A DNA stretch of 64,000 bases. Origin: Pseudomonas sp. P8_241 (GTDB lineage: Bacteria; Pseudomonadota; Gammaproteobacteria; Pseudomonadales; Pseudomonadaceae). Shown piece after piece: positions 6,419-44,383 of this stretch (position 1 is the first letter of the stretch; the number at the start of each line of letters is the position of its first letter). The stretch covers positions 496,001 through 560,000 of the forward strand of contig NZ_CP125377.1 of the NCBI RefSeq assembly GCF_034008315.1, given 5' to 3'. The notes beneath the pieces are model-generated. The model was given only the letters and a program-made list of their open reading frames with translations, did no database searches and was not told the origin of the DNA. Both the position numbers and the translations under genes were made by a program.

Positions 6419-6857
6419 GCACGGCTCCGAAGGTAAAGATGAGCGGCATTCTACGCCGCAAGCCGACTTGCGTTCGAAACTATTCCTGCGGGTGATGGCA
6501 TCACTGGCGATTGTCGGTGTGATGGTGGGGCTGATGATTGGCCGCCTGACCACGCCAGACCCCAGCGAACTGCAGCAAATTGAAGTGACGAGCGACGGTC
6601 TGGTGGTGTGGTTCAACAATGAACCCAAGACCCACGGCGAGATCGTCGATGGCAGTGTGGCGCTGTTGTTCGGCGCCCAAGGCAAGACGCACAAAGGCCA
6701 GCTCAAGCTGGGCGACAAGGACGTGAACTGGCGGGTTCGTTTAAGTGATGAGGGGGTGTTGCTGACACTGGTTGCGGCCCGACCCCTGCAAGGCGAGTGG
6801 GCTGGTAGTGAGGTCGATGACCGCTGGCGGCTGGAGATCCATCTCCGAGAGCAATAA
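6417..6857 (+). CDS. Conserved hypothetical protein with one membrane helix
   Basis: I do not recognise a named family. The 146-residue product has a short charged N-terminus (about 24 residues), one hydrophobic helix (about residues 27-41, ASLAIVGVMVGLMIG) and a hydrophilic, beta-rich C-terminal part that is probably periplasmic (EVTSDGLVVWFNNEP, then DKDVNWRVRLSDEGVLLTLV). An AAGGA sequence 11 bases upstream supports the first ATG. A later ATG at the start of the hydrophobic helix (residue 27) would give a 120-residue version. It starts inside the CATG shared with trmL. Its stop codon lies at the predicted 3' end of the antisense sRNA gene at 6853-7081. Confidence 0.75.
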   Translation: MHGSEGKDERHSTPQADLRSKLFLRVMASLAIVGVMVGLMIGRLTTPDPSELQQIEVTSDGLVVWFNNEPKTHGEIVDGSVALLFGAQGKTHKGQLKLGDKDVNWRVRLSDEGVLLTLVAARPLQGEWAGSEVDDRWRLEIHLREQ

Positions 6858-7081
6858 AAGAGGGAATCCCCGGCCTGCCTGTACCAAGGTCCCCAAAACG
6901 TGCGGCTCGTCGCGAATGCGGGGTGAGCCTGGTGTAAAGAAGGAACCCCTGACCTGCCTGTATCAGGAGCCCCAAAACTGTTTGGGCTCGTCGCAAGTGC
7001 GGTATGAGCCCGTGTAAAGAGGGGAATCCCCGGCCTGCCTGTACCAAGGTCCCCGAAACCGGGTAGTGAACTGAATCACTG
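6853..7081 (-). ncRNA. nrsZ: Nitrogen-regulated sRNA NrsZ (predicted)
   Basis: The gap downstream of ntrC carries a sigma-54 promoter (7092-7107) and then about 230 bases made of 2.5 copies of an 80-base unit. Read on the minus strand, each full unit folds into two hairpins. One has GGCTC paired with GAGCC. The other has the conserved loop TACAGGCAGG, closed by CCTTGG/CCGGGG in the outer copies and CCTGA/TCAGG in the middle copy, so base changes are compensated. The last copy ends in CTCTTTTATT, which can act as the terminator. In P. aeruginosa, NrsZ is a repeat-containing sRNA of about this size, directly downstream of ntrC and dependent on NtrC and RpoN. Position, size, promoter and repeat structure match. 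The exact ends are predicted. Confidence 0.8.
6855..7058. repeat. 80-bp tandem repeat, 2.5 copies
   Basis: Units begin at about 6855, 6935 and 7015, each starting TAAAGA/TAAAAG followed by a GGAATCCCCGGCCTGCCTGT-like block (the middle unit is more diverged). The third copy is partial. It is the repeat body of the predicted sRNA. Confidence 0.9.
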
Positions 7082-7091
7082 AATGGACTAT

Positions 7092-7107
7092 TGCAGGCGG
7101 CGTGCCA
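7092..7107 (-). promoter_or_regulatory. Sigma-54 promoter of nrsZ
   Basis: The minus strand reads TGGCAC-GCCGC-CTGCA, with GG and GC 12 bases apart as sigma-54 requires. It matches the consensus TGGCAC-N5-TTGCW except for one base in the -12 element. Predicted start near 7081. Confidence 0.75.
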
Positions 7108-7147
7108 GTTTTCACAAAGTGAAACCAGAAACCGTTTTTGAAACGCT

Positions 7148-7182
7148 GAAAGCCCCTGAATTCGGGGCTTTCGTGTTTTTTC
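7148..7182. terminator. Hairpin with T-tract between ntrC and nrsZ
   Basis: A perfect nine-base stem GAAAGCCCC/GGGGCTTTC is followed on the plus strand by GTGTTTTTTC. The T-run favours plus-strand termination, although the only evident long transcript here (ntrC) comes from the other side, where the tract after the stem is weak. Confidence 0.55.
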
Positions 7183-7230
7183 GGAAGGGGTTCGATTGCG
7201 AAAGCAGGTTGGGTTTCGAAGCTGTTTTTG

Positions 7231-7267
7231 TGCGCGATTGCGGTTCACGGTGCATTGCGGCGGTGCA
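7231..7267 (-). promoter_or_regulatory. Two NtrC-type enhancer sites upstream of nrsZ
   Basis: TGCATT-GCGGC-GGTGCA (7251-7267) matches the NtrC consensus TGCACC-N5-GGTGCA at 10 of 12 positions. TGCGCG-ATTGC-GGTTCA (7231-7247) is a weaker copy two helical turns away. They lie about 150-186 bases upstream of the predicted nrsZ start, a normal enhancer distance. Confidence 0.6.
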
Positions 7268-7273
7268 CAAACA

Positions 7274-7350
7274 AAAAAGATCGCAGCCTTCGGCAGCTCC
7301 TACAGGGTCTTGCGCAGGCCTGTAGGCGCTGCCGAAGGCTGCGATCTTTT
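7274..7350. repeat. REPIN, GATCGCAGCCTTCGGCAGC class
   Basis: Inverted copies of GATCGCAGCCTTCGGCAGC flank a short spacer 28 bases beyond the ntrC stop. Same class as the elements at 19811, 55735 and 63861. Confidence 0.9.
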
Positions 7351-7377
7351 CGCTAATGGCTAATTTCTGAAGACGAC

Positions 7378-8814
7378 CTAGCCCTCATCCCCCTCATCTT
7401 CATCCCCGCCATCCACCTTCATCCCCAATTCCTTGATCTTGCGCGTCAGGGTGTTGCGCCCCCAACCCAGCAAGACGGCGGCATCGCGACGGCGACCGGC
7501 GGTGTGTTTGAGCGCAGTCTCGATCATGATCCGCTCGAAAGCCGGCACGGCACTGTCCAGCAAGCTCGACTGACCGCGAGACAGCGCCTGATCGGCCCAC
7601 TGACGCAGTGCCTGTTCCCAGTTGGTCACGGGCGCCGAGTCCTGCGGCAGGCTCAGCAGTTCAGGCGGCAGGTCGCCGATGTGCACTTCGCGACCCGAAG
7701 CCATCACCGTGATCCAGCGACAGGTGTTTTCCAGTTGCCGCACGTTGCCCGGCCAAGGCAGGTTCTTCAGGTATTCCTCGGTTTCGCTTTTCAGCAGCTT
7801 CGGCTCGACGGCCAGTTCCTGGGCGGCACGGCTGAGGAAGTGTTTGGCCAGGGTCGGAATGTCTTCGCGACGATCCGACAGGCGCGGGATGTGGATGCGA
7901 ATTACGTTGAGGCGGTGGAACAAGTCTTCACGGAATTTCCCGGCGTGCACCAGCGTTTCCAGATTCTGGTGGGTCGCGGCGATGATTCGCACATCGACCT
8001 TTACTGGCACATGACCGCCGACGCGGTAGAACTCGCCATCGGCCAATACCCGCAGCAAGCGGGTCTGGGTATCGGCCGGCATATCGCCGATTTCATCGAG
8101 GAACAGTGTGCCGCCATCGGCTTGCTCGAAACGCCCGCGACGCAGGTTGGCCGCGCCGGTGAATGCGCCTTTCTCGTGGCCGAACAGCTCGGACTCCATC
8201 AGGTCTTTCGGGATCGCCGCCATGTTCAGCGCAATGAATGGCGACGCGGCGCGAGGGCTGTGACGATGAAGGGCATGGGCTACCAGTTCTTTACCGGTAC
8301 CCGATTCACCGTTGATCAGCACGGTGATGTTGGAATGGCTCAGGCGCCCAATGGCGCGAAACACTTCCTGCATCGCCGGCGCTTCGCCGATGATTTCCGG
8401 GGTACGGGTCAGGATCGGGGCGACTTCCAGGCCTTGTTGTTCCTGGGCGTGCTGGTTGGCGCGCTTGACCAGGGAAACCGCTTCGTCGACATCGAACGGC
8501 TTGGGCAGGTACTCGAATGCGCCGCCCTGGTAGGACGCTACGGCGCTGTCCAGATCCGAGTGTGCCGTCATGATGATCACCGGCAGCCGTGGGTGCGATT
8601 CGCGAATCCGCGCCAGAAGGTCCAGGCCGCTGGCGCCGGGCATGCGGATGTCGGAGATGATCACATCCGGCTGCTGGCGCGCCAGGCGGCTCATCACGCC
8701 ATCGGCACTGTCGAAGCTTTGCGTGGTCATGCCTTCCTGTTGCAAGGCTTTTTCCAGGACCCAACGGATAGAACGGTCGTCATCGACGATCCACACGGTT
8801 TCACTACGGCTCAT
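7378..8814 (-). CDS. ntrC: Nitrogen regulation response regulator NtrC (NR(I))
   Basis: Sigma-54-dependent enhancer-binding protein that, when phosphorylated by NtrB, activates nitrogen-scavenging genes such as glnA. The 478-residue protein has a receiver domain with phosphoacceptor Asp55 (VIISDIRMPG) and an AAA+ domain. The AAA+ domain carries the Walker A sequence GESGTGKE, the sigma-54 contact loop GAFTGA and the Walker B sequence GGTLFLDEIGDMP. A Fis-type DNA-binding helix-turn-helix sits at the C-terminus (GRRRDAAVLLGWGRNTLTRKI). A short acidic tail (DGGDEDEGDEG) follows. It overlaps ntrB by four bases, indicating translational coupling. Confidence 0.97.
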   Translation of the reverse strand: MSRSETVWIVDDDRSIRWVLEKALQQEGMTTQSFDSADGVMSRLARQQPDVIISDIRMPGASGLDLLARIRESHPRLPVIIMTAHSDLDSAVASYQGGAFEYLPKPFDVDEAVSLVKRANQHAQEQQGLEVAPILTRTPEIIGEAPAMQEVFRAIGRLSHSNITVLINGESGTGKELVAHALHRHSPRAASPFIALNMAAIPKDLMESELFGHEKGAFTGAANLRRGRFEQADGGTLFLDEIGDMPADTQTRLLRVLADGEFYRVGGHVPVKVDVRIIAATHQNLETLVHAGKFREDLFHRLNVIRIHIPRLSDRREDIPTLAKHFLSRAAQELAVEPKLLKSETEEYLKNLPWPGNVRQLENTCRWITVMASGREVHIGDLPPELLSLPQDSAPVTNWEQALRQWADQALSRGQSSLLDSAVPAFERIMIETALKHTAGRRRDAAVLLGWGRNTLTRKIKELGMKVDGGDEDEGDEG

Positions 8815-29675: not shown

Positions 29676-31040
29676 TCAGCCCAGGAGATCGCGCAGGACC
29701 TGAGTGAAGGCGCGGTTGCTTTCTTCTTCGTCCGCATGCCGACCGTCACGCACCACCCACTGCCCATTCACCAACACATCGCGCACTTGGCGATCCCCAC
29801 CGGCAAACAGCCAGCGATTCAAAATCCCGTCGCCATTGGCTGTCGCCAGGTACGGATCGTTGCCGTCCAGCACCAGCCAGTCGGCGCGCTTGCCGACTTC
29901 CAGCGCACCAATCGGTTGCCCCAGCGCCTGGGCACCACCGTCCAGCGCCGCATCAAACAACGTGCGCCCGACCATCGGCTGATCCGCGCCATACAAACGG
30001 TTGCGTCGCTGATCGCGCAGACGCTGGCCGTATTCCAGCCAGCGCAATTCTTCCACCACACTCAGCGACACATGACTGTCGGAACCGATGCCCATGCGTC
30101 CGCCCTGAGCGAGGAAATCCACTGCCGGGAAAATCCCGTCGCCGAGGTTGGCCTCGGTGGTCAGGCACAGGCCGGCGATGGCGCGACTCTTGGCCATCAG
30201 CGTGATTTCTTCCGGGTTGGCATGGGTCGCGTGGACCAGACACCAGCGCTGATCAACGTCGACATTTTCGTAAAGCCATTGCAACGGACGTCGGCCACTC
30301 CAGGTCAGGCAGTCTTCGACTTCTTTCTGCTGCTCGGCGATATGGATGTGCACCGGGCATTGCTGGTCGCTGGCCGCCAGCACTTCGCTGATTTGTTGCG
30401 GCGTAACTGCGCGCAATGAGTGGAAACACAATCCCAGGGACTGCGCGGGTTGCTGCGCCAGCATCGGTTGCAAGCGTGATTGCAGCGTGAGGTAGTTCTC
30501 GGTGCTGTTGATAAAGCGACGCTGACCCTCGTTCGGCGTCTGGCCACCGAAACCGGAATGGCTGTAAAGCACCGGCAGCAGGGTCAAGCCGATCCCGGCA
30601 GCGCTGGCAGCCTGGCTGATACGCAGCGCCAGTTCAGCCGGATCGGCGTAAGGCTGACCGTTGCGGTCGTGATGGACGTAATGAAACTCCGCCACCGAGG
30701 TGTAACCGGCCTTGAGCATTTCGATGTACAGCTGACGGGCGATGACGCCGAGTTGCTCCGGGCTGATTTTTCCGACGAGGCGATACATCAAATCGCGCCA
30801 GGTCCAGAAGCTGTCGTTCGGGTTGCCCGCCACTTCCGCTAGTCCTGCCATGGCCCGCTGGAAGGCGTGGGAGTGCAGGTTCGGCATGCCCGGCAGCAGC
30901 GGACCGCTCAGCCGTTCGGCGCCATCTGCGTTGGAATCGGCCTGAATATGGGTCAATACGCCGTCGGCGTTGACCTCAAGACGTACATTGTTGGCCCATC
31001 CACTAGGCAGCAGCGCGCGTTCGGCAAAGAAGGCGGACAT
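29676..31040 (-). CDS. hutF: Formimidoylglutamate deiminase
   Basis: Zinc-dependent amidohydrolase that converts N-formimino-L-glutamate to N-formyl-L-glutamate plus ammonia, the fourth step of the five-step histidine route; HutG then finishes it. The 454-residue protein has the N-terminal metal motif NLHSHAFQRAMAG, with two histidines, then VHIHIAEQQKEVEDC and VHATHANPEE, and the late GSDSHVSLSVVEELRWLEYGQRLR motif with the metal-binding Asp. It is transcribed divergently from hutC. The shared 107-base gap holds a HutC operator, so histidine/urocanate control is likely. Confidence 0.95.
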   Translation of the reverse strand: MSAFFAERALLPSGWANNVRLEVNADGVLTHIQADSNADGAERLSGPLLPGMPNLHSHAFQRAMAGLAEVAGNPNDSFWTWRDLMYRLVGKISPEQLGVIARQLYIEMLKAGYTSVAEFHYVHHDRNGQPYADPAELALRISQAASAAGIGLTLLPVLYSHSGFGGQTPNEGQRRFINSTENYLTLQSRLQPMLAQQPAQSLGLCFHSLRAVTPQQISEVLAASDQQCPVHIHIAEQQKEVEDCLTWSGRRPLQWLYENVDVDQRWCLVHATHANPEEITLMAKSRAIAGLCLTTEANLGDGIFPAVDFLAQGGRMGIGSDSHVSLSVVEELRWLEYGQRLRDQRRNRLYGADQPMVGRTLFDAALDGGAQALGQPIGALEVGKRADWLVLDGNDPYLATANGDGILNRWLFAGGDRQVRDVLVNGQWVVRDGRHADEEESNRAFTQVLRDLLG

Positions 31041-31147: not shown

Positions 31148-31897
31148 GTGCCGACTCCGCCTCCAGTCTCTCCGTTGGCCGCGAACATGGGCGACAGTCC
31201 GGCGCCCTTGTACGCCCGCGTCAAACAGATGATCACCCAGCAAATCGACAGTGGTAACTGGCCGCCGCACTATCGCGTTCCGTCGGAAAGCGAACTGGTC
31301 AGCCAGTTGGGCTTCAGCCGCATGACCATCAACCGCGCCTTGCGCGAGATGACCGCCGACGGCCTGTTGGTGCGCATGCAAGGTGTCGGCACGTTCGTCG
31401 CCGAGCCGAAAAGCCAGTCCGCCCTGTTCGAAGTGCACAACATCGCCGACGAAATCGCCTCCCGTGGCCATCGCCACACGTGCAAGGTCATCACCCTCGA
31501 AGAAGAGGCCGCCGGCTCCGAGCGCGCTTTGGCGCTGGACATGCGCGAAGGCCAGAAGGTGTTCCATTCGCTGATCGTGCATTTCGAAAACGACATCCCG
31601 GTGCAAATCGAAGACCGTTTCGTCAATGCGCTGGTGGCGCCGGACTACCTCAAGCAGGACTTCACCCTGCAAACGCCTTACGCCTACCTCAACCAGGTCG
31701 CGCCGCTGACCGAGGGCGAGCACGTGGTCGAGGCGATTCTGGCCGAGCCGTCCGAATGCAAATTGCTGCAGATTGAAAAAGGCGAGCCGTGCCTGCTGAT
31801 TCGTCGCCGCACCTGGTCCGGTCGTCAGCCGGTGACCGCCGCTCGCTTGATCCACCCTGGTTCCCGTCATCGTCTTGAAGGTCGGTTCCACAAATGA
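31148..31897 (+). CDS. hutC: Histidine utilization repressor HutC (GntR family)
   Basis: Transcriptional repressor of the hut genes released by urocanate. The 249-residue protein has an N-terminal GntR winged helix-turn-helix (YRVPSESELVSQLGFSRMTINRALREMTADGLLVRMQGVGTFVA, about 38-81). The C-terminal UTRA ligand domain (about 95-240) contains FENDIPVQIEDRFVN. The GTG start follows AAGGA by six bases. Its stop overlaps the hutD start by four bases, so hutCD is one translational unit. Predicted operators lie at 31065 and 32745. Confidence 0.96.
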   Translation: MPTPPPVSPLAANMGDSPAPLYARVKQMITQQIDSGNWPPHYRVPSESELVSQLGFSRMTINRALREMTADGLLVRMQGVGTFVAEPKSQSALFEVHNIADEIASRGHRHTCKVITLEEEAAGSERALALDMREGQKVFHSLIVHFENDIPVQIEDRFVNALVAPDYLKQDFTLQTPYAYLNQVAPLTEGEHVVEAILAEPSECKLLQIEKGEPCLLIRRRTWSGRQPVTAARLIHPGSRHRLEGRFHK

Positions 31898-32463
31898 ATG
31901 AGTTGAAGGTTCTACGCGCCAAAGACTACCCGCGTATGCCGTGGAAAAACGGCGGCGGCAGCACTGAGGAAATTGCCCGTGACGCTGGTACTGGCCTGGA
32001 TGGCTTTGGCTGGCGCCTCTCGATTGCCGACATCGGAGAGTCGGGCGGGTTTTCCACCTTCGCCGGTTACGAGCGAGTGATCACGGTTTTACAGGGTGAC
32101 GGCATGAGCCTGACGGTGGATGGCCAGGACACTCGGTCACTGTTACCGCTGGACCCGTTTGCGTTCAGCGGCGAGAGCAAGGTTTCCTGCACATTGCTCG
32201 GCGGTCCGATCCGCGATTTCAACCTCATCTATGCACCGCAGCGTTATGCCGCGCGGTTGCAGTGGTTGAGTGGGGAGCAACGGTTCTTCAGTTCGGCGGG
32301 CACCGTGTTGGTGTTCAGCATCAGCGAAACGCTGGAAGTGAAAGTCGGTAACAGTGCTTCGCAACTGGGTCGCCATGATTGCCTTCAGCATGTTGGTAAC
32401 ATAGGTCTTCTCGAGGTTTCCATTCGCGGCGCCTGTTGCGTGATCGAATTGACAGAGCGCTGA
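31894..32463 (+). CDS. hutD: HutD family protein
   Basis: A 189-residue cupin-like (beta-barrel) protein of the HutD family. It is recognised by LRAKDYPRMPWKNGGGSTEEIARDAG at the N-terminus and DGFGWRLSIADIGESGGFSTFAGYERVITVLQGDGMSLTV. In P. fluorescens SBW25, HutD has been described as a governor that limits hut expression; the molecular mechanism is not settled. Its ATG overlaps the hutC stop by four bases, so its production is coupled to the repressor. Confidence 0.93.
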   Translation: MNELKVLRAKDYPRMPWKNGGGSTEEIARDAGTGLDGFGWRLSIADIGESGGFSTFAGYERVITVLQGDGMSLTVDGQDTRSLLPLDPFAFSGESKVSCTLLGGPIRDFNLIYAPQRYAARLQWLSGEQRFFSSAGTVLVFSISETLEVKVGNSASQLGRHDCLQHVGNIGLLEVSIRGACCVIELTER

Positions 32464-32889: not shown

Positions 32890-34557
32890 GTGACTAAATT
32901 TCGTGACGTTGAAATCCGCGCTGCCCGCGGTAACACGCTGACCGCCAAGAGCTGGCTGACCGAAGCGCCGCTGCGCATGCTGATGAACAACCTCGACCCG
33001 GAAGTCGCCGAGAACCCTAAAGAACTGGTGGTTTACGGTGGTATCGGGCGTGCAGCGCGTAACTGGGAATGCTACGACAAGATCGTCGAAAGCCTGACCA
33101 ACCTGAACGACGACGAGACCCTGCTGGTGCAATCCGGCAAGCCGGTCGGCGTGTTCAAGACCCACAGCAACGCTCCTCGCGTACTGATCGCCAACTCCAA
33201 CCTGGTGCCACACTGGGCGAGCTGGGAACACTTCAACGAACTGGACGCCAAAGGCCTGGCCATGTACGGCCAGATGACCGCCGGCAGCTGGATCTACATC
33301 GGCAGCCAGGGCATCGTCCAGGGCACCTACGAAACCTTCGTCGAAGCCGGTCGCCAACACTACAACGATGACCTGAAAGGCAAGTGGGTCCTGACCGCTG
33401 GCCTGGGCGGCATGGGTGGCGCACAGCCGCTGGCTGCAACCCTGGCCGGCGCTTGCTCGCTGAACATCGAATGCCAGCAGGTCAGCATCGATTTCCGTTT
33501 GAAAAGCCGCTACGTCGACGAGCAAGCCACCGACCTCGACGACGCACTGGCCCGCATCGCCAAATACACCAAAGAAGGCAAGGCGATCTCCATCGCGCTG
33601 CTGGGTAACGCGGCTGAAATCCTGCCGGAGCTGGTCAAGCGCGGCGTGCGCCCGGACATGGTCACCGACCAGACCAGCGCCCACGATCCGCTCAACGGCT
33701 ACCTGCCGGCCGGCTGGACCTGGGACCAGTACCGCGCTCGCGCCAAGACCGAGCCTGCTGCTGTGATCAAAGCCGCCAAGCAATCGATGGCCGTGCACGT
33801 CAAAGCCATGTTGGACTTCCAGAAAATGGGCGTACCGACTTTCGACTACGGCAACAACATCCGTCAGATGGCTCAGGAAGAAGGCGTGGAAAACGCATTC
33901 GACTTCCCGGGCTTCGTACCGGCCTACATCCGTCCACTGTTCTGCCGTGGCATCGGCCCGTTCCGTTGGGCTGCACTGTCGGGCAACGCTGAAGACATCT
34001 ACAAGACCGACGCCAAGGTCAAAGAGCTGATCCCGGACGACGCTCACCTGCACAACTGGCTGGACATGGCCCGCGAGCGCATCAGCTTCCAGGGTCTGCC
34101 GGCACGTATCTGCTGGGTTGGCCTGGGTCTGCGCGCCAAGCTGGGTCTGGCGTTCAACGAAATGGTGCGCAGCGGTGAATTGTCCGCACCCATCGTCATC
34201 GGCCGTGACCACCTGGACTCCGGTTCGGTAGCCAGCCCGAACCGCGAAACCGAATCGATGCAGGACGGTTCCGACGCCGTGTCCGACTGGCCACTGCTCA
34301 ACGCTCTGCTGAACACCGCGAGCGGGGCGACCTGGGTTTCCCTGCACCACGGCGGCGGCGTCGGCATGGGCTTCTCCCAGCATTCGGGCATGGTGATTGT
34401 CTGCGACGGTACGGACGAAGCGGCAGAGCGCATTGCTCGCGTTCTGCACAACGACCCGGCGACTGGCGTTATGCGTCATGCCGATGCCGGTTACCAGATC
34501 GCCATCGACTGCGCCAAGGAACAAGGGCTGAACCTGCCGATGATTACCGGCAAGTAA
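32890..34557 (+). CDS. hutU: Urocanate hydratase
   Basis: NAD-dependent enzyme that hydrates urocanate to 4-imidazolone-5-propanoate, step two of histidine degradation. The 555-residue protein begins at GTG ([21 protein letters not shown], missing the first residue) with GAGGAG eight bases upstream. It shows the urocanase motifs [45 protein letters not shown] and [18 protein letters not shown]. The length is normal. It is preceded by a 426-base region holding a REPIN, candidate enhancer half-sites, a sigma-54 promoter and a HutC operator, so it is the main regulated entry point of the hut operon. Confidence 0.97.
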
Positions 34558-34696: not shown

Positions 34697-36166
34697 ATGG
34701 CTGTCACCAGCGAACGTGCAGGCAACAAACCGTTGATCGAGAAACGCTCGATCGACTACATCCCGGAAGCGGAAAGACACGGTCGTCTGTTCAGCCAGTT
34801 CACCCTGTGGATGGGGGCCAACCTGCAAATCACCGCGATTGTCACCGGCGCATTGGCGGTGGTGCTCGGCGGTGATGTGTTCTGGTCGCTCATCGGTTTG
34901 CTGATCGGGCAATTGCTCGGCGGTGGCGTGATGGCGTTGCATGCGGCGCAAGGGCCCAAGCTTGGCTTGCCGCAGATGATCTCCAGCCGGGTGCAGTTCG
35001 GCGTTTATGGCGCGGCCATCCCGATTGTGCTGGTCTGCTTGATGTACCTGGGCTTTACCGCAACGGGAACCGTGCTTTCCGGCCAGGCGCTGGGCCAGTT
35101 GTTTGGGGTCAGCGACACCGTCGGCATCCTGCTTTTTGCCAGTGTCATCGTGCTGGTCACGGTGCTCGGTTATCGGGTGATCCATTGGATCGGCCGTGTT
35201 GCCAGTGTCATTGGCGTGATTGCCTTTGTTTATCTGTTCAGCCGTCTGATGAGCCAGGTTGACGTTGGCGCGCTGTTGCAAATCCGCCACTTCAGCTGGA
35301 GCAGTTTCCTGCTGGCGGTGTCGCTCGCGGCGTCCTGGCAGATCGCCTTCGGCCCCTATGTGGCTGACTATTCCCGCTACTTGCCGAGCAAAGTTTCCTC
35401 GGTAAAGACCTTTTTTGCCGCAGGCGCAGGTTCGGTCATTGGTGCACAGGTAGCGATGGTTCTCGGCGTGTTCGCTGCCGCGTCGGCCAACGGGCAATTC
35501 GCCGGCCACGAAGTGGCCTACATCGTTGGTCTGGGTGGTACCGGTGCTACCGCTGCGCTGCTGTACTTCAGCATCGCGTTCGGCAAGGTCACCATCTCCA
35601 CGCTGAACTCCTACGGCAGCTTCATGTGCATTGCGACCATCATCAGCGGCTTTCGCGGTGAGCTGAAAGTAACGCGCTTGCAGCGTCTGGTGTTCGTGCT
35701 GGTCATCGTCGGTGCTGCGACCCTGATGGCGTTGCTCGGCCAGCACTCGTTCCTCGGTGCATTCAAGTCCTTCATCCTGTTCTTGCTGGCGTTCTTCACG
35801 CCCTGGAGCGCGATCAACCTGGTGGATTACTACTGCATCACCCGCGAACGCTATGACGTGCCGGCGCTGGCCGATCCGAACGGTCGTTACGGCCGCTGGA
35901 ACACTCTCGGGATCAGCGTCTATGTTTTCGGTGTGTTGGTGCAGCTGCCGTTCATCTCCTCCAAGTTCTATACCGGTCCGCTGGTGGATGCCCTGGGGGG
36001 AGTGGATATTTCCTGGATCATCGGCCTGGTGCTGCCCGCCGCCCTGTATTACCTGTGCGCAAAAAAATGGCACGGCACAGTGCCCGATCAACTGATCCTG
36101 CCGGTCGAGCAGGACGCCGTCATCGAACAAAAGCTGAGCACCGGCCGCGCTGCGGCGCAGGCCTGA
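34697..36166 (+). CDS. NCS1-family cytosine/purine-type permease, likely urocanate transporter
   Basis: Inner-membrane secondary transporter of 489 residues with about 12 hydrophobic helices. It belongs to the nucleobase-cation-symport-1 family (CodB-like), seen in GRLFSQFTLWMGANLQI near the N-terminus, LLGGGVMALHAAQGPKLGLPQM and FLLAFFTPWSAINLVDYYCITR. In P. fluorescens SBW25 the equivalent position in the hut locus holds a permease implicated in urocanate uptake, which is the most likely role here. The general family substrates are cytosine, uracil, thiamine, allantoin and hydantoins. An AGAGG ribosome-binding site precedes the ATG. hutX follows. Confidence 0.88.
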   Translation: MAVTSERAGNKPLIEKRSIDYIPEAERHGRLFSQFTLWMGANLQITAIVTGALAVVLGGDVFWSLIGLLIGQLLGGGVMALHAAQGPKLGLPQMISSRVQFGVYGAAIPIVLVCLMYLGFTATGTVLSGQALGQLFGVSDTVGILLFASVIVLVTVLGYRVIHWIGRVASVIGVIAFVYLFSRLMSQVDVGALLQIRHFSWSSFLLAVSLAASWQIAFGPYVADYSRYLPSKVSSVKTFFAAGAGSVIGAQVAMVLGVFAAASANGQFAGHEVAYIVGLGGTGATAALLYFSIAFGKVTISTLNSYGSFMCIATIISGFRGELKVTRLQRLVFVLVIVGAATLMALLGQHSFLGAFKSFILFLLAFFTPWSAINLVDYYCITRERYDVPALADPNGRYGRWNTLGISVYVFGVLVQLPFISSKFYTGPLVDALGGVDISWIIGLVLPAALYYLCAKKWHGTVPDQLILPVEQDAVIEQKLSTGRAAAQA

Positions 36167-36235
36167 CTGGACGTGGACAGGGCTGGATGCCTTTTGACTG
36201 CCGTAAGCCCATTCATGATTAGGAGCGTCAAGACA

Positions 36236-37204
36236 ATGAAATCGAACAAGACCCTGCTGACCACATTGCTTTCCATGGGCCTGCTGGCCAGCGCCGGCGC
36301 CACGCAGGCGGCGGGTTGGTGCGAGTCGGGGAAACCTGTGAAATTCGCCGGTCTGAACTGGGAAAGCGGCATGCTGCTGACCGACGTGTTGCAGGTCGTG
36401 CTTGAGAAAGGCTACGACTGCAAGACCGACAGCCTGCCGGGTAACTCCATCACCATGGAAAACGCCCTGAGCAGCAACGATATTCAAGTATTCGCCGAAG
36501 AATGGGTCGGCCGCAGCGAGGTCTGGAACAAGGCCGAGAAGGCCGGCAAGGTCGTCGGTGTCGGCGCTCCTGTAGTCGGTGCTGTCGAAGGCTGGTACGT
36601 GCCGCGCTACGTGATCGAAGGCGATGCCAGCCGCAAGCTCGAAGCCAAGGCGCCAGACCTGAAAAACATCGCCGACCTGGGCAAGTACGCCACGGTGTTC
36701 AAGGATCAGGAAGAGCCGACCAAAGGCCGCTTCTACAACTGCCCGGCCGGTTGGACCTGTGAGCTCGACAACAGCGAAATGCTCAAAAGCTACGGCCTGG
36801 AAAGCACCTACACCAACTTCCGCCCAGGCACCGGCCCGGCGCTGGATGCCGCCGTGCTGTCGAGCTACAAGCGCGGAGAGCCGATCCTGTTCTATTACTG
36901 GTCGCCGACGCCGCTGATGGGCCAGGTCGACCTGGTCAAGCTTGAAGAAAAACCGGGCGTGGACAAGACCGTGACCATCAAGGTCGGCCTGTCCAAGACC
37001 TTCCATGACGAAGCCCCGGAACTGGTGGCCGTACTGGAAAAGGTCAACCTGCCGATCGACCTGCTGAACCAGAACCTGGGGCGCATGGCCAAGGAGCGGA
37101 TTGCTTCGCCGAAACTGGCGAAAATCTTCCTCAAGGAACATCCTGAAGTCTGGCACCAGTGGGTGAGCGAAGACGCTGCCAGGAAAATCGACGCGGCCTT
37201 GTAG
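36236..37204 (+). CDS. hutX: ABC transporter substrate-binding protein HutX (OpuAC/ProX family)
   Basis: Periplasmic binding protein of the glycine-betaine/proline class, here most likely for histidine. It has 322 residues with a signal peptide (MKSNKTLLTTLLSMGLLASAGATQAAG). The mature protein carries WESGMLLTDVLQVVLEKGY and GEPILFYYWSPTPLMG, typical of the OpuAC fold with its aromatic ligand box. The two cysteines in the N-terminal lobe could pair. The start follows AGGAG by ten bases; upstream ATGs lack one. A perfect hairpin lies in the gap to hutW. Confidence 0.9.
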   Translation: MKSNKTLLTTLLSMGLLASAGATQAAGWCESGKPVKFAGLNWESGMLLTDVLQVVLEKGYDCKTDSLPGNSITMENALSSNDIQVFAEEWVGRSEVWNKAEKAGKVVGVGAPVVGAVEGWYVPRYVIEGDASRKLEAKAPDLKNIADLGKYATVFKDQEEPTKGRFYNCPAGWTCELDNSEMLKSYGLESTYTNFRPGTGPALDAAVLSSYKRGEPILFYYWSPTPLMGQVDLVKLEEKPGVDKTVTIKVGLSKTFHDEAPELVAVLEKVNLPIDLLNQNLGRMAKERIASPKLAKIFLKEHPEVWHQWVSEDAARKIDAAL

Positions 37205-37274: not shown

Positions 37275-38126
37275 ATGTTTCCCGAAAGCTTTACCTTTTC
37301 CATCGCCGACTGGGTCAACGGTTGGGTCGATTCGCTGGTAACCAATTACGGCGACGTGTTCCGCAGCATCTCCGACACCCTGTTGTGGGCCATCGTCAAT
37401 CTCGAAGGCCTGCTGCGTGCGGCACCGTGGTGGCTGATGCTGGCGATCGTGGCCGGCGTGGCCTGGCACGCAACCCGCAAGGTGGTGACCACCGCGGTGA
37501 TCGTCGGTTTGCTGTTCCTGGTCGGCGCGGTCGGCCTCTGGGACAAACTGATGCAGACCCTGGCGCTGATGATGGTGGCGACGGTCATTTCGGTGCTGAT
37601 CGGCATCCCGCTGGGCATCCTCTCGGCGCGCAGCAATCGCCTGCGTTCGGTGTTGATGCCGCTGTTGGACATCATGCAGACCATGCCGAGCTTCGTGTAC
37701 CTGATCCCGGTGCTGATGCTGTTCGGTCTGGGCAAGGTCCCGGCGATTTTCGCCACGGTGATCTATGCCGCACCGCCGCTGATCCGCCTGACAGACCTGG
37801 GCATTCGCCAGGTTGACGGCGAAGTGATGGAAGCGATCAACGCTTTCGGTGCCAACCGCTGGCAGCAATTGTTCGGCGTGCAACTGCCGCTGGCCTTGCC
37901 AAGCATCATGGCGGGTATCAACCAGACCACCATGATGGCCCTGTCGATGGTGGTGATTGCCTCGATGATCGGTGCCCGTGGTTTGGGTGAAGACGTGCTG
38001 GTGGGGATTCAGACCCTCAACGTCGGACGCGGCCTGGAGGCGGGTTTGGCGATTGTGATTCTGGCAGTGGTCATCGACCGCATTACACAGGCGTACGGTC
38101 GGCCACGGCATGAGGTGAGCAAATGA
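37275..38126 (+). CDS. hutW: ABC transporter permease HutW (ProW family)
   Basis: Inner-membrane permease of the HutXWV importer, 283 residues with about seven helices. The conserved coupling loop reads EAINAFGANRWQQLFGVQLPLALPSIMAGINQT. The N-terminal amphipathic part (FTFSIADWVNGWVDSLV) resembles ProW of betaine/choline/histidine transporters. Its stop overlaps the hutV start by four bases, so permease and ATPase are coupled. Confidence 0.92.
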   Translation: MFPESFTFSIADWVNGWVDSLVTNYGDVFRSISDTLLWAIVNLEGLLRAAPWWLMLAIVAGVAWHATRKVVTTAVIVGLLFLVGAVGLWDKLMQTLALMMVATVISVLIGIPLGILSARSNRLRSVLMPLLDIMQTMPSFVYLIPVLMLFGLGKVPAIFATVIYAAPPLIRLTDLGIRQVDGEVMEAINAFGANRWQQLFGVQLPLALPSIMAGINQTTMMALSMVVIASMIGARGLGEDVLVGIQTLNVGRGLEAGLAIVILAVVIDRITQAYGRPRHEVSK

Positions 38127-38953
38127 ACAACGCATCCGTAAGCAAGATCGAAGTCAAAAACGTCTTCAAGATTTTCGGTAACCGTTCCAAGGACGCGCTG
38201 GCCATGGTCGGCCAGGGCAAGACCAAGGAGCAAGTGCTGTCCGAGACGGGTTGCGTGGTCGGCGTGAACGATCTGTCCCTGAGCATCGGCAGCGGCGAGA
38301 TCTTCGTGATCATGGGGTTATCGGGTTCAGGAAAATCCACTCTGGTGCGCCACTTCAACCGCCTGATCGATCCGACCAGCGGCGCGATCCTGGTGGACGG
38401 CGTGGACATCCTGCAATACGACATGGAAGCCCTGCGCGAATTTCGTCGGCGCAAGATCAGCATGGTGTTCCAGAGCTTCGGCCTGTTGCCGCACAAGAGC
38501 GTGCTGGATAACGTCGCCTATGGCTTGAAAATCCGTGGCGAAAGCAAAGCCCTGTGCAACGAACGGGCGCTGCACTGGATCAACACCGTGGGCCTCAAGG
38601 GCTACGAAAACAAATACCCGCATCAGCTGTCCGGTGGCATGCGTCAGCGTGTAGGCCTGGCTCGCGCCCTGGCGGCGGACACCGACATCATTCTGATGGA
38701 CGAAGCGTTCAGCGCCCTCGATCCGCTGATCCGCGCCGAGATGCAAGACCAGTTGCTGGAGCTGCAAAAGACCTTGCACAAGACCATCGTCTTCATCACC
38801 CACGACCTCGACGAGGCCGTGCGCATCGGCAACCGCATCGCGATCCTCAAGGACGGCCGCCTGATCCAGGTCGGCACGCCGCGAGAGATCCTGCATTCGC
38901 CGGCGGATGAGTATGTCGACCGCTTTGTGCAGCGTCGGGCGGCGGTGGTTTAA
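38123..38953 (+). CDS. hutV: ABC transporter ATP-binding protein HutV (ProV family)
   Basis: ATPase of the HutXWV importer, 276 residues. It shows the Walker A sequence GLSGSGKST, the Q-loop MVFQSFGLLPHKSV, the ABC signature LSGGMRQRVGLARALA, the Walker B sequence IILMDEAFSALD and the switch His in FITHDLDEA. It ends shortly after the nucleotide-binding domain and lacks the pair of CBS domains that ProV/OpuAA use for osmotic gating. This fits a nutrient rather than an osmolyte transporter. Confidence 0.93.
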   Translation: MNNASVSKIEVKNVFKIFGNRSKDALAMVGQGKTKEQVLSETGCVVGVNDLSLSIGSGEIFVIMGLSGSGKSTLVRHFNRLIDPTSGAILVDGVDILQYDMEALREFRRRKISMVFQSFGLLPHKSVLDNVAYGLKIRGESKALCNERALHWINTVGLKGYENKYPHQLSGGMRQRVGLARALAADTDIILMDEAFSALDPLIRAEMQDQLLELQKTLHKTIVFITHDLDEAVRIGNRIAILKDGRLIQVGTPREILHSPADEYVDRFVQRRAAVV

Positions 38954-38976
38954 GAAATTTGTGGTGGTTGTGCTGG

Positions 38977-39050
38977 CCCCCATCGCTGGCAAGCCGGCTC
39001 CTACAAGGTGTACACAATCCCTGTAGGAGCTGGCTTGCCAGCGATGGGGT
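38977..39050. repeat. REPIN, GGCTTGCCAGCGA class
   Basis: Inverted arms CCCCATCGCTGGCAAGCCGG and GCTGGCTTGCCAGCGATGGG between hutV and the first HAL-family gene. Confidence 0.9.
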
Positions 39051-39088: not shown

Positions 39089-40612
39089 ATGTCCCAGGCT
39101 GAAAAAATCGTTATCACCCAAGCGCAAGTCACTTGGCAGGATGTGGTGGCCGTGGCCCGCGATGGCGCACCGCTTGAGCTGTCGGCGCCGATCTGGACAC
39201 GCATCGAAAACGCTCAGGCCATCGTCCAGCGCATCGTTACCAGCGGCGAACGCGCCTATGGCATCAACACCGGTCTGGGCGCGCTGTGCAACGTCTCGCT
39301 GCAGGACGAGCAACTCAGCCAGTTGTCGCGCAACACGCTGCTCAGCCACGCCTGCGGCGTTGGCACACCGCTGACCAACGAACAGACCCGTTCGATCATG
39401 TGCGCCGCCGTCATTAACTACAGCCATGGCAAATCCGGCCTGCACCGCCAGGTCGTCGAAGCGCTGTTGGCGCTGCTCAACCGTGGCATCACTCCGCAAG
39501 TACCGTCCCAGGGTTCTGTGGGCTACCTGACCCACATGGCTCACATCGGCATTGCGTTGTTGGGCGTCGGCAATGTCAGCTATCGCGGGCAGATCGTTTC
39601 CGCTCAGCAGGCATTGGCGGAAGAAGGCTTGCAACCAGTCAAACTCGGTGCCAAAGACGGTTTGTGCCTGGTCAACGGCACACCGTGCATGACCGGCCTG
39701 AGCTGCCTGGCGATTGCCGACGCCACGCGCCTGCTGGAATGGGCCGACGTGGTCGGTGCCATGAGCTTCGAAGCCCAACGCGGACAAATCGACGCGTTCG
39801 ATGCCGAGATCATCGCGCTCAAACCGCACCCTGGCATGCAGCAGGTCGGGATCAACCTGCGAGCCTTGCTCGACGGCAGTGAAGTGATCGCCCAGAGCAA
39901 GGGCATTCGCACGCAAGACGCCCTGAGCATTCGCTCGATCCCGCAGGTGCACGGCGCCGCGCGCGATCAACTGGCGCACGCGACCAAGCAGATCGAAACC
40001 GAGCTCAACAGCGCCACCGATAACCCATTGGTGCTGGGCACCGCGGACAACTACCGCGTCGTTTCCCAGGCCAACCCGCACGGTCAGTCCGTGGCAATGG
40101 CAGCGGATTTGCTGGCCATCGCGATGGCAGAAATCGGCTCCATCGCCGAACGTCGCCTGGACCGCTTGATCAACCCGCATGTCAGCGGTCTGCCGGCGTT
40201 TCTGGTGGCCAACCCGGGAGTGAATTCCGGGATGATGATCGTGCAATACGTCGCCGCCTCGCTGTGCGCGGAAAACCGCCAGTTGGCGCAACCGGCAGTG
40301 TTGGATAACTACGTGACGTCGGGTCTGCAAGAAGACCACCTGAGCCTGGGCACCAACGCGGCGCTGAAACTGCACCGCGCCTTGGAAAACTGCACGCAGA
40401 TCCTCGCCATCGAGTATCTGCTGGCGGCCCAGGCGTTTGAATTCCTGAAAGAGCAGCGCTTCGGCGCGGGCACCGATGCCGCGTGGCGTCTGCTGCGTGA
40501 GCGCGTTCCGGCTTACGATCAGGATCGTTGGCTGGCGCCGGATATTGCCGCTGCTGCTGGCGTTTTGAAAGAAGCGAATTTGCTGCACAAGGTTTTGCCG
40601 AACCTGAACTGA
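39089..40612 (+). CDS. Histidine ammonia-lyase-family paralogue lacking the MIO triad (probable pseudoenzyme)
   Basis: A 507-residue member of the HAL/PAL family, but with its cofactor site missing. Active HALs cyclise Ala-Ser-Gly within [12 protein letters not shown] into the MIO electrophile. Here the segment reads SQGSVGYLTHMAHIG (residues 141-155), so exactly ASG is gone, and downstream alignment resumes without other gaps. The catalytic Tyr of DPYSLR is Leu279 (DALSIR) and the Phe of GNFHxE is Pro330. Tyr57 (YGINTG), His87 (LSHACGVG), the NGT Asn196 and QEDH are kept. Codon use matches its neighbours and the frame is intact, so it is maintained rather than decaying. GAGG precedes the chosen ATG by seven bases. 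It corresponds in position to the first of two hutH genes in related strains. Deamination of histidine by the usual route is not expected. Confidence 0.9.
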   Translation: MSQAEKIVITQAQVTWQDVVAVARDGAPLELSAPIWTRIENAQAIVQRIVTSGERAYGINTGLGALCNVSLQDEQLSQLSRNTLLSHACGVGTPLTNEQTRSIMCAAVINYSHGKSGLHRQVVEALLALLNRGITPQVPSQGSVGYLTHMAHIGIALLGVGNVSYRGQIVSAQQALAEEGLQPVKLGAKDGLCLVNGTPCMTGLSCLAIADATRLLEWADVVGAMSFEAQRGQIDAFDAEIIALKPHPGMQQVGINLRALLDGSEVIAQSKGIRTQDALSIRSIPQVHGAARDQLAHATKQIETELNSATDNPLVLGTADNYRVVSQANPHGQSVAMAADLLAIAMAEIGSIAERRLDRLINPHVSGLPAFLVANPGVNSGMMIVQYVAASLCAENRQLAQPAVLDNYVTSGLQEDHLSLGTNAALKLHRALENCTQILAIEYLLAAQAFEFLKEQRFGAGTDAAWRLLRERVPAYDQDRWLAPDIAAAAGVLKEANLLHKVLPNLN

Positions 40613-40729: not shown

Positions 40730-42262
40730 ATGACTGCCCTAAACCTGATTCCCGGCCAACTGACCCTCGCTCAGCTGCGTGATGTCTTTCAACAGCCGGT
40801 ACAACTGACCCTCGACAACAGCGCCTCGGCGCAGATCGAAGCCAGCGTTGCCTGCGTGGAACAAATTCTCGCCGAGAACCGTACCGCCTACGGGATCAAC
40901 ACCGGTTTCGGCCTGCTGGCCTCGACCCGCATCGCCAGCGAAGACCTGGAGAATCTGCAGCGTTCGCTGGTGCTGTCCCATGCCGCCGGTGTCGGCCAGC
41001 CGATCAGCGATGAGCTGGTCCGCCTGATCATGGTGCTCAAGGTCAACAGTCTGAGCCGAGGTTTCTCCGGCATTCGTCGCGTGGTGATCGATGCGCTGAT
41101 CGCGCTGATCAACGCCGAGGTTTATCCGCACATTCCTTTGAAAGGCTCGGTCGGTGCGTCCGGTGATTTGGCGCCTCTGGCGCACATGTCGCTGGTGCTG
41201 CTGGGCGAAGGCAAGGCGCGCTACAAGGGCGAGTGGATGGAAGCCACCGAAGCGCTGAAAGTCGCCGGCCTGACTCCGCTGACCCTCGCCGCCAAAGAAG
41301 GCCTGGCGCTGCTCAACGGCACGCAGGTGTCGACCGCGTTTGCCCTGCGTGGCCTGTTCGAAGGCGAAGATCTCTTTGCGGGTGCCTTGGCTCTCGGCGG
41401 CCTCACCGTTGAAGCGGTCCTGGGCTCGCGCTCGCCGTTCGACGCACGCATCCACGCGGCCCGTGGTCAGAAAGGCCAGATCGACGCCGCCGCTGCTTAC
41501 CGCGATCTGCTGGGAGAGCGCAGTGAAGTGTCCGATTCCCACGAGAACTGCGAGAAGGTGCAAGACCCTTATTCCCTGCGTTGCCAGCCGCAAGTCATGG
41601 GCGCCTGCCTGACTCAGTTCCGTCAGGCCGCCGAAGTGTTGGCCGTCGAAGCCAACGCGGTCTCCGACAACCCGCTGGTGTTCGCTGCTGAAGGTGATGT
41701 GATTTCCGGCGGCAACTTCCACGCTGAACCGGTGGCCATGGCGGCCGACAACATGGCGCTGGCCATCGCTGAAATCGGTTCTCTGAGCGAGCGTCGCATC
41801 TCGCTGATGATGGACAAACACATGTCGCAACTGCCGCCGTTCCTGGTGGCCAATGGCGGCGTCAACTCCGGTTTCATGATCGCCCAGGTGACGGCTGCTG
41901 CTCTGGCCAGCGAGAACAAGGCACTGTCCCATCCGCATTCGGTGGACAGTCTGCCGACCTCCGCCAACCAGGAAGATCATGTTTCCATGGCTCCGGCGGC
42001 GGGCAAGCGTCTGTGGGAAATGGCCGAGAACACTCGCGGGATTCTCGCGGTGGAATGGCTGGCGGCGGTGCAGGGGCTGGACTTGCGCAATGGCCTGAAG
42101 ACTTCGACCAAACTGGAACAGGCTCGCGCCATTCTGCGTAAAGAAGTGCCGTTTTATGAGAAGGACCGGTTCTTTGCACCGGACATCAATGCGGCGACTG
42201 AACTGTTGGCTTCGCGGTGCCTGACTGAGCTGGTTCCAACCAAGCTTTTGCCTAGCCTGTGA
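40730..42262 (+). CDS. hutH: Histidine ammonia-lyase
   Basis: Cytosolic tetrameric lyase that converts L-histidine to urocanate and ammonia, the first step of the pathway. The 510-residue protein has the intact MIO-forming triad Ala143-Ser144-Gly145 in [15 protein letters not shown]. It also has Tyr54 (YGINTGFG), His84 (LSHAAGVG), the NGT asparagine, [15 protein letters not shown] and QEDHVSM, that is, every catalytic residue known for the P. putida enzyme. AAAAGGAG lies nine bases before the ATG. It follows the MIO-less paralogue by 117 bases with no transporter gene between them. Confidence 0.97.
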
Positions 42263-42269
42263 TGCCCCC

Positions 42270-42334
42270 ATCGCTGGCAAGCCGGCTCCTACAGGGGTTC
42301 GTATTCACCCTGTAGGAGCCGGCTTGCTGGCGAT
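42270..42334. repeat. REPIN, GGCTTGCTGGCGAT class
   Basis: Inverted arms ATCGCTGGCAAGCCGGCTCC and GGAGCCGGCTTGCTGGCGAT between hutH and hutI. Confidence 0.9.
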
Positions 42335-42363
42335 TCGATTTTGAATACTGTGGAGACTAAGGG

Positions 42364-43587
42364 ATGAAAACCCTCTGGCAACACTGCCACGTCGCAACCA
42401 TGGCCCAAGGCGTCTACTCGATTATCGAGGACGCGGCCATCGTGACGTCCGGTGCGCTCATCGAGTGGATCGGCCCTCGCGCTGAACTGCCGGCGGGCGA
42501 GTACCCGGCGGTCAACGATTTGAACGGGGCCTGGGTCACGCCGGGCCTGATCGACTGCCACACCCACACGGTGTTCGGCGGTAACCGCAGCGGCGAATTC
42601 GAGCAGCGTCTGCAAGGCGTCAGCTATGCGGACATCGCAGCCAGCGGTGGCGGCATCGCCAGCACAGTGCGTGCCACCCGCGCTGCGAGTGAAGACGAGC
42701 TGTTCGCCAGCGCAGCCAAGCGCCTGAAAAGCCTGATGCGCGATGGCGTTACCAGCATCGAAATCAAATCCGGCTACGGCCTGGACCTGGCCAACGAACG
42801 CAAGATGCTGCGTGTGGCCCGTCGCCTCGGTGCAGAATTGCCGGTCAGCGTTCGCAGCACCTGTCTGGCGGCTCATGCCTTGCCGCCGGAATATGCCGAT
42901 CGTGCCGACGATTACATCGATCACATCTGCGCTGAAATGCTCCCGGCCCTGGCCGCCGAAGGCTTGGTGGACGCCGTGGATGCGTTCTGCGAGTACCTGG
43001 CGTTCTCCCCGGCGCAGGTCGAGCGCGTATTCATCACCGCTCAGAAGCTGGGTTTGCCGGTGAAGCTGCACGCCGAGCAGCTGTCGTCGCTGCACGGCTC
43101 GAGTCTGGCGGCGCGTTACCAGGCGTTGTCCGCCGATCATCTGGAATTCATGACCGAAGACGACGCCATCGCCATGGCCAAGTCCGGCACCGTCGCGGTG
43201 CTGTTGCCCGGGGCCTTTTACTTCCTGCGCGAAACCCAATTGCCGCCGATGGAAGCCCTGCGCAAGCACGGCGTGAAAATCGCCATCGCCAGCGACCTCA
43301 ACCCCGGCACCTCGCCGGCGCTGTCATTGCGCCTGATGCTGAACATGGCCTGCACCTGTTTGCGCATGACCCCGGAAGAAGCCCTGGCCGGTGCGACGAT
43401 CCATGCCGCCACTGCATTGGGCATGGCCGACACCCACGGTTCGCTGGAAGTCGGCAAGGTCGCGGACTTCGTCGCCTGGCAAATCGATCGTCCGGCCGAC
43501 CTGTGTTACTGGCTCGGCGGCGACCTGGAAAAACGCGTCGTGCGCCACGGCGTCGAATCAAGTTTGCAGGAGATCTGCTGTGGATAA
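42364..43587 (+). CDS. hutI: Imidazolonepropionase
   Basis: Metal-dependent amidohydrolase that opens 4-imidazolone-5-propanoate to N-formimino-L-glutamate, step three of histidine degradation. The 407-residue protein has the metal motif [16 protein letters not shown] (about 62-77), the substrate-loop [16 protein letters not shown], the metal His in LHAEQLS and the late Asp in [15 protein letters not shown] lies eight bases before the ATG. Its last eight bases overlap the hutG start, so hutIG is translationally coupled. Confidence 0.97.
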
Positions 43588-44383
43588 GGTTCTGAACTTC
43601 AAACAAGGCCGCGTGCCGCTGCTGATCAGCATGCCCCACGCTGGCGTGCGCCTGACGCCTGCGGTCGAAGCCGGGTTGATCCCTGACGCGAAAAGCCTGC
43701 CGGACACCGACTGGCACATTCCGCAGCTCTACGACTTCGCCGCCGAACTGGGCGCCAGTACCCTGGCCGCCGAGTATTCGCGGTTCGTTATCGACCTGAA
43801 CCGCCCGTCCGACGACAAACCGTTATATGTCGGCGCGACCACCGGCCTGTACCCGGCCACGTTGTTCGATGGCGTGCCGTTGTTCCGCGAAGGGCAGGAG
43901 CCTTCCAAAGAACAACGCGCGATTTATCTGGAGCAGATCTGGACGCCGTACCACAGCACACTGCAAAACGAGCTGGCGCGTCTGAAGGCCGAATTTGGCT
44001 ACGCGCTGCTGTTCGATGCGCACTCGATCCGCTCGATCATCCCGCACCTGTTCGACGGCAAGCTGCCGGACTTCAACCTCGGCACCTTCAATGGCGCCAG
44101 TTGCGATCAGCAGTTGGCGACGCAACTGGAAGCCATTTGTGCGCGTCATGACCAATACACCCACGTGCTGAACGGTCGCTTCAAGGGCGGCCACATCACC
44201 CGGCATTACGGCAACCCGGCCGAAAACATCCACGCCGTGCAGCTGGAGCTGGGGCAGTGCACGTATATGGAAGAGTTCGAGCCGTTCCGCTACCGGCCGG
44301 ACCTGGCGGAGCCGACGCAGGTTGTGTTGAAGGAATTGCTGCAAGGGTTGTTGGCGTGGGGCGAAAAGCACTACAGCGCTTAA
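43580..44383 (+). CDS. hutG: N-formylglutamate deformylase
   Basis: Hydrolyses N-formyl-L-glutamate to glutamate and formate, the last step of the five-step route that begins with the HutF product. The 267-residue protein begins at GTG ([20 protein letters not shown] after the first residue), inside the end of hutI, with AGGAG eight bases upstream. Features include [32 protein letters not shown] and a C-terminal part with the acidic [11 protein letters not shown] segment. The presence of both hutF and hutG shows the Pseudomonas-type deiminase pathway rather than direct formiminoglutamase. Confidence 0.95.

Follow-up and report, generated by a model that had tools for sequence, protein, structure and literature searches.

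A MIO-less relative of histidine ammonia-lyase in the Pseudomonas hut operon: a candidate hercynine lyase

The hut operon of Pseudomonas sp. P8_241 contains two adjacent genes of the histidine ammonia-lyase (HAL) family, and the first of them encodes a protein, P0001, that lacks the Ala-Ser-Gly triad from which the MIO cofactor is built. Judging from sequence, the MIO-less protein may be no dead histidase but a working HAL-fold lyase that needs no MIO and converts hercynine (histidine trimethylbetaine) to urocanate and trimethylamine, a reading to which a probability of about 0.5 is assigned. The sequence itself, its conservation, the genome context and the co-occurrence with other genes were observed, and it is from these that we infer the activity, the substrate, the leaving group and the roles of single residues.

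The MIO-less gene and its operon

The MIO-less gene lies at positions 39089..40612 on the plus strand of the window, which is the whole 64-kb stretch of DNA that was analysed. It encodes 507 aa in a reading frame that is open throughout, with a full-length match to PF00221 (558.6 bits), and its codon use resembles that of its operon neighbours (r 0.93, GC3 0.77). At the MIO loop the protein reads GSVG-YLTHMAH, three residues shorter than HutH of the same operon, with which it shares 39% identity. The replacing segment covers codons 145-152 (39521..39544, plus strand; Gly-Tyr146-Leu-Thr-His149-Met-Ala-His); its new Tyr can be aligned to the Ala or to the Asp of HutH, and Ala-Ser-Gly is absent both ways. 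Tyr57, His87, Asn196, Gln414, Glu415 and His417 are kept, with Leu279 in place of Tyr and Pro330 in place of Phe. The intact, MIO-type hutH (40730..42262, plus strand) starts 117 bases after the stop of the MIO-less gene. The original prediction had described the clean deletion, these substitutions and kept residues, the distance to hutH and an intact frame with host-like codon use, and all of this holds. Residue numbers compared below with those of P. putida HAL (Tyr280, Phe329 and others) follow the numbering of that enzyme.

The operon opens with hutF (29682..31040, minus strand), followed on the plus strand by the repressor gene hutC (31187..31894), hutD (31903..32385), the urocanase gene hutU (32890..34557), an NCS1/cytosine-permease family transporter (34697..36166), hutX (36233..37204), hutW (37275..38126), hutV (38123..38953), the MIO-less gene, hutH, hutI (42364..43587) and hutG (43586..44383, start position tentative); for hutF, hutC and hutD the coordinates are the extents of the matches. 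HutU, whose gene is the only urocanase-like one within the window, would take the product of the MIO-less enzyme through the next step. Inverted repeat pairs of the GCTGGCAAGCC / GGCTTGCCAGC type, REP-like by eye, are present at about 38976-39049 in the interval between hutV and the MIO-less gene, and a second site of the GCTGGCAAGCC / GGCTTGCCAGC type is present at about 42264-42336, between hutH and hutI.

The same operon layout is described in Pseudomonas (PMC8871633), and the NCS1-family gene corresponds by position to hutTu, the urocanate transporter gene of SBW25. SBW25 hutH1 is taken to be the orthologue of the MIO-less gene, being identified by its place behind hutXWV in the hut operon and not by its sequence. 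In the available text of PMC8871633, hutH1 is called a histidase, is dispensable for growth on histidine and is given no other function, and HutXWV contributes to histidine uptake in SBW25. The dispensability of hutH1 counts for a hercynine lyase. It also agrees with the earlier expectation that no HAL chemistry would proceed without MIO, and the protein is probably no longer a histidase.

In Pseudomonas sp. J380, iron limitation raises the expression of both genes named hutH (PMC8069873), so that a second gene of this name is expressed in that strain. PA5093 of P. aeruginosa should presumably be the MIO-less gene, judging by its annotation and by gene order. It is listed as hutG in the available text of PMC12772324, possibly through a slip of the locus tag.

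The host genome holds four HAL-family matches, namely the MIO-less gene, HutH and two more paralogues with TSG and ASG triads. The curated hutH models TIGR01225 and NF006871 (NCBIfam) both accept P0001 above their cut-offs, which probably explains the database name HutH, or histidine ammonia-lyase, for the MIO-less protein.

A conserved clade in three proteobacterial classes

Three protein searches, from each of which the best 120 of 6757-7980 matches were taken, yielded 327 distinct proteins after merging. The MIO triad is absent in all 327 of these listed proteins; 323 carry the clade motif, three have GSAGYLIHNAH and one has GSVAYLTHMAH. The MIO-less gene is present in 80/80 loci kept, out of 405 relatives found, and clade members occur in 119 of 298 Pseudomonadaceae genomes, two of them at 49% identity. 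A 14-member profile matched at 718-907 bits in 27 of 397 Pseudomonadota genomes (11 Pseudomonadaceae, including the genome of the window, and 16 others), the next match of any kind scoring 476. Plasmid records extend the family to Erwinia, Burkholderia, Rhizobium and Sinorhizobium.

A tree of 68 rows was built from 65 representatives (85%, from 370 HAL-family ORFs) together with P0001, HutH and ergothionase, the columns of the MIO loop, of Tyr280 and of Phe329 being masked. In this tree the 32 rows of the MIO-less clade, which spans gamma-, beta- and alphaproteobacteria, form one side of a 100/100 branch, and the MIO-type HutH group also stands apart at 100/100. The dN/dS of the MIO-less gene has a median of 0.075 and a maximum of 0.139 (3239 of 3240 pairs from 81 sequences, the remaining pair being excluded for a dS under 0.05), compared with medians of 0.040 for hutH and 0.059 for hutV; hutI and hutU yielded just 6 and 7 rows after the filters, and their values were not used.

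A decaying duplicate or a sequencing error would have nothing in its favour beyond the deletion itself, and this explanation is already refuted. The deletion is common to all 327 listed homologues, dN/dS is low and one clade extends across three classes, so the loss of the triad is no local accident. The original prediction had proposed that the deletion would define an orthologous clade under purifying selection, and this was found; neither Ala-Ser-Gly in near-identical relatives among the 327 nor a dN/dS near 1 was encountered.

Two candidates for unusual gene structures were set aside. An apparent HutV-lyase fusion with both Pfam domains (P0284 and P0285) is out of frame within HutV in P0285 and lacks part of HutV in P0284, and these single copies are treated as frame errors. 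The long frame of L094 is just an open frame upstream. Among the open-licence texts consulted, none was found that describes the clade as MIO-less or as a hercynine lyase.

Active-site residues and MIO-free chemistry

Y57, S86, H87, N196, Q276, R282, M383 and E415 are invariant in the representatives of the clade and of MIO-type HutH alike. According to the available text of PMC11432326, Y52, H82, N194 and E411 of Geobacillus HAL, equivalents of clade invariants, are essential, and recognition of histidine in HAL is linked to the Ser-His pair. With the substrate and catalytic residues of HAL among the shared invariants, the clade looks like a lyase that still recognises imidazole but has shed MIO and the residues around it. 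Sixteen alignment columns are class-specific (32 clade versus 24 MIO-type HutH representatives, with each state shared by 94% or more of its group), including the MIO loop (Tyr146, three gaps, His149), Leu279, Ala328, Tyr387, Leu413 and Leu418; Tyr146 and His149 are invariant in 32/32 clade representatives. P0001 therefore shares with HutH (TIGR01225, EC 4.3.1.3) the PF00221 fold family, the histidine-binding and base residues and the hut operon, and differs from it in the new Tyr146 and His149, in its separate clade (100/100) and in the joint loss of Ala-Ser-Gly, Tyr280 (replaced by Leu) and Phe329 (replaced by Pro or Ala).

A histidine ammonia-lyase that dispenses with MIO, or that forms it by another route, would agree with the TIGR01225 score of P0001 (548.4 bits against a cut-off of 539.15) and with the adjacent HutXWV, which can carry histidine (PMC8871633). 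Such an enzyme is nevertheless very improbable, as the loop has no Ala-Ser-Gly and Phe329 is Pro or Ala in the clade, while F329G of P. putida HAL is cited in the accessible part of PMC11432326 as unable to form MIO. SBW25 hutH1 is not required on histidine (PMC8871633), and a MIO-deficient PAL mutant lost hydroamination of both substrates tried, as far as the available text of PMC12535398 describes it. The latter result fits a need of ammonia for MIO.

For a hercynine lyase, the following steps are proposed. The compound imported by HutXWV would be a quaternary derivative of histidine, hercynine (N-alpha-trimethyl-L-histidine) being the likeliest. The enzyme would hold the imidazole via the Ser-His motif (S86-H87) and Glu415, and the carboxylate via Arg282 and Gln276, and Tyr57, the base of HAL, would remove the beta-proton. 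Trimethylamine would then depart; since ammonia is by far the poorer leaving group of the two, the MIO electrophile is proposed to be unnecessary. The residues that build or face MIO (Ala-Ser-Gly, Tyr280 and Phe329) would have been replaced, with the new invariants Tyr146, His149 and Tyr387 filling the site, and the urocanate would enter HutU, HutI, HutF and HutG and relieve HutC repression. The roles of Tyr57, Arg282 and Gln276 in the MIO-less enzyme are assumed to carry over from HAL. A quaternary histidine derivative would explain together the carrier type, the kept imidazole and carboxylate sites, the dispensable MIO and the delivery of urocanate, and hercynine is chosen as the simplest such compound. 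In the HAL mechanism, according to the text available of PMC11432326, MIO has the further role of making the beta-proton more acidic by way of the imidazole. A good leaving group might therefore not be enough by itself, which counts against a hercynine lyase.

MIO-free chemistry in the HAL fold is known from ergothionase, a HAL relative without MIO that splits ergothioneine into trimethylamine and thiourocanate (PMC13405746, in the part available). Like P0001, ergothionase (Treponema denticola, PDB 6s7j/6s7q; also Burkholderia sp. HME13) has no MIO triad and has Leu at Tyr280, and like the clade it keeps the equivalents of Tyr53, His83, Gln277, Arg283 and Glu414. Its mechanism reportedly consists of substrate activation with acid/base catalysis. 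Unlike P0001, it retains Phe329, has Ser for Asn195 and a GEGD loop instead of the Tyr, and acts on ergothioneine; the two proteins are 28% identical and belong to separate clades (100/100). In the tree, 6s7j groups at 100/100 with the genes of L205, L206, L207 and L199, without P0001. This position of the MIO-less clade counts against its reading as a betaine lyase, although P0001 is proposed, by analogy, to work like ergothionase.

A single group of all MIO-less rows is neither rejected nor demonstrated (p-AU 0.50), and at least two changes fall on the tree, the backbone of which is made unsure by the long branches of L003, L004, L210, 6s7j and L208. A search with the L205 protein brought 6s7j into the alignment; 6s7j is not among the alignments listed for searches with P0001, L144, L118, L208 and two pieces of P0001.

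Transporters, substrate and other MIO-less lineages

The nearest recognised upstream gene of the clade gene is a transporter in 120 of 126 cases, at most 257 bases away. The 126 are distinct clade genes whose available upstream sequence reaches 4 kb or more (63 shorter loci and one duplicate were left out), and 77 of them are close Pseudomonas relatives from the 80-locus set, so the counts are not independent events. The upstream transporter is HutXWV in 97 cases, an amino-acid ABC system in 17 and a BCCT carrier in six; six genes have none. Relatedness within Pseudomonas inflates these counts, and the swap of carrier type in distant groups is the stronger point. Hut genes are present in 118 of the 126 loci and in none of the six loci without a direct upstream transporter. 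In L155, the nearest gene upstream of the clade gene belongs to the second MIO-less family (family 2) described below.

In the window, HutX is a ProX/ChoX-like substrate-binding protein of the quaternary amine type, HutW a ProW/ChoW-like permease and HutV an ATPase of the betaine/proline/choline family above the TIGR01186 cut-off. All three match ProXWV/ChoXWV models, and HutX also matches glycine-betaine-binding structures; the betaine-type curated cut-off is passed by HutV alone and the other matches lie below, which points to the type of carrier, not to its substrate. The BCCT genes of L199, L192, L114 and L116 have the betaine BCCT model as best match, below cut-off, and the 17 amino-acid ABC systems look like importers of Lys/Arg/Orn/His and not like betaine carriers. 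HutXWV and EgtU, the ergothioneine transporter, are both carriers of the quaternary-amine type, and EgtU holds a histidine betaine by cation-pi contacts (PMC9732360, in the text available). EgtU is, unlike HutXWV, a different, Firmicutes system; HutX is likened to it by carrier type, its specificity for hercynine being conjectural.

HutX (at least 564 bits, 76% identity) occurs in 109 of the 298 Pseudomonadaceae genomes, and the MIO-less gene is present in 109/109 of them. With HutX at 65% identity or more, there are 123 genomes, 11 of which are without the MIO-less gene. In genomes whose only match is at HutH level, G039 among them, both are absent. This co-occurrence suggests that within Pseudomonadaceae the presence of the carrier follows that of the MIO-less gene and not that of hutH. 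Ten genomes have the MIO-less gene without such a close HutX: it stands with an amino-acid ABC set in G005, G091 and G096 and with a BCCT carrier in G089, G163 and G285, has an ABC set downstream in G241 and lies outside hut in G175 and G201, while the locus of the tenth, G076, was too short for the upstream count; G005, G076 and G096 also hold a HutX of 66-67% identity. S. meliloti was considered as a possible example of HutXWV in the absence of the MIO-less gene; its pSymB region (L231), with hutI-hutH-hutG-hutU and no HutXWV match, decides nothing. Several points count against a hercynine lyase, namely the amino-acid type of 17 of the 120 carriers, the 6 of 126 genes without an upstream transporter, the 11 of 123 HutX genomes without the gene and the share of HutXWV in SBW25 histidine uptake (PMC8871633).

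The original prediction favoured a maintained pseudoenzyme that might sense histidine or urocanate or form mixed tetramers with HutH; a buffer that binds either compound would be a further role of this kind. Binding residues kept with MIO lost, at least one further HAL-family match in each of the 119 carrier genomes and the dispensability of SBW25 hutH1 (PMC8871633) would suit such a role. It is still rather improbable: the MIO-linked residues are lost, but the invariant base and binding residues include Tyr57, Asn196 and Glu415, which correspond to residues that HAL cannot do without (PMC11432326). Moreover, the occurrence of the gene across Pseudomonadaceae follows HutX more closely than it follows hutH, in L149, L150 and L195 it has its own transporter with no hutH in the stretch fetched, and HAL relatives lacking MIO can be catalytic, as with ergothionase (PMC13405746). 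The gene is maintained, as predicted, and the sensor or HutH partner gives way as first choice to what had been the third option, a different MIO-free reaction, which is favoured by the kept HAL residues, the transporter linkage and the ergothionase precedent.

A MIO-free lyase with the same chemistry might instead act on another histidine-like amine, such as ergothioneine or its sulfonate, dimethyl- or monomethyl-histidine, or a ring-methylated betaine. The active-site logic would be the same, ergothionase is a relative at 28% identity, and a SolA-type N-methyl amino acid oxidase follows the MIO-less gene in L153, L204 and L229, which could hint at less methylated substrates. This is unlikely, though, given that the clade lies outside the ergothionase clade, that the neighbours are ordinary hut enzymes for which the entry compound is plain urocanate, and that the window has one urocanase-like gene only.

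At least four separate-looking MIO-less lineages of the HAL fold occur here, namely the MIO-less clade, the ergothionase clade, the Klebsiella-plasmid type of L208 and family 2, to which the L144 gene belongs, and several are paired with quaternary-amine carriers. A broader proposition, put at slightly under even odds, is that MIO loss marks a change of leaving group from ammonia to trimethylamine, so that MIO-less HAL-fold proteins would be betaine lyases, hercynine would have an entry to urocanate and many database entries would be misnamed. If true, soil and plant bacteria would possess a hercynine-to-urocanate entry to the hut pathway, and hercynine could be broken down to glutamate, releasing trimethylamine on the way. 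Hercynine is made by fungi and actinobacteria en route to ergothioneine. A large set of proteins named HutH would then do other chemistry, at least one of which (P0001) the curated hutH model scores as true, and they would offer natural comparative material on an enzyme fold doing without its electrophilic cofactor.

Klebsiella pneumoniae plasmid NZ_CP138808.1 (L208 461-10334) carries a hut cluster with a different MIO-less HAL-like gene, which has GSVGYLIATAH and Leu at Tyr280 and stands beside a ProV-like ATPase and an OsmF-like betaine-binding protein. The ergothionase-clade gene of L199 is likewise near an OsmF-like binding protein, and the betaine-type carriers beside these two genes count for a betaine lyase. 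Ergothionase-clade genes lie at L199 4513-6051, L205 5992-7497, L206 about 6001-7500 and L207 about 6001-7560; those of L206 and L207 start with an apparent signal peptide, by eye, and their products may act outside the cytoplasm.

Family 2 comprises genes at L144 6774-8318, L155 8824-10344, L156 6458-8002, L157 6914-8452 and L209 6977-8551. Their loops read GSVGYLGPEGH or GSVGYLAVEGH, and Tyr280 and Phe329 are kept in the three representatives L144, L155 and L209. The Pseudomonadaceae copies adjoin an amino-acid ABC set, and the neighbours in L156 are a Rieske-type oxygenase, a GbcB-like reductase and an S-(hydroxymethyl)glutathione dehydrogenase, which suggests N-demethylation nearby. Finally, the Haloarcula plasmid locus L210 (2001-3482) contains an archaeal HAL-like gene with GSADNACELAN at the MIO loop, beside hutU and an ABC set.
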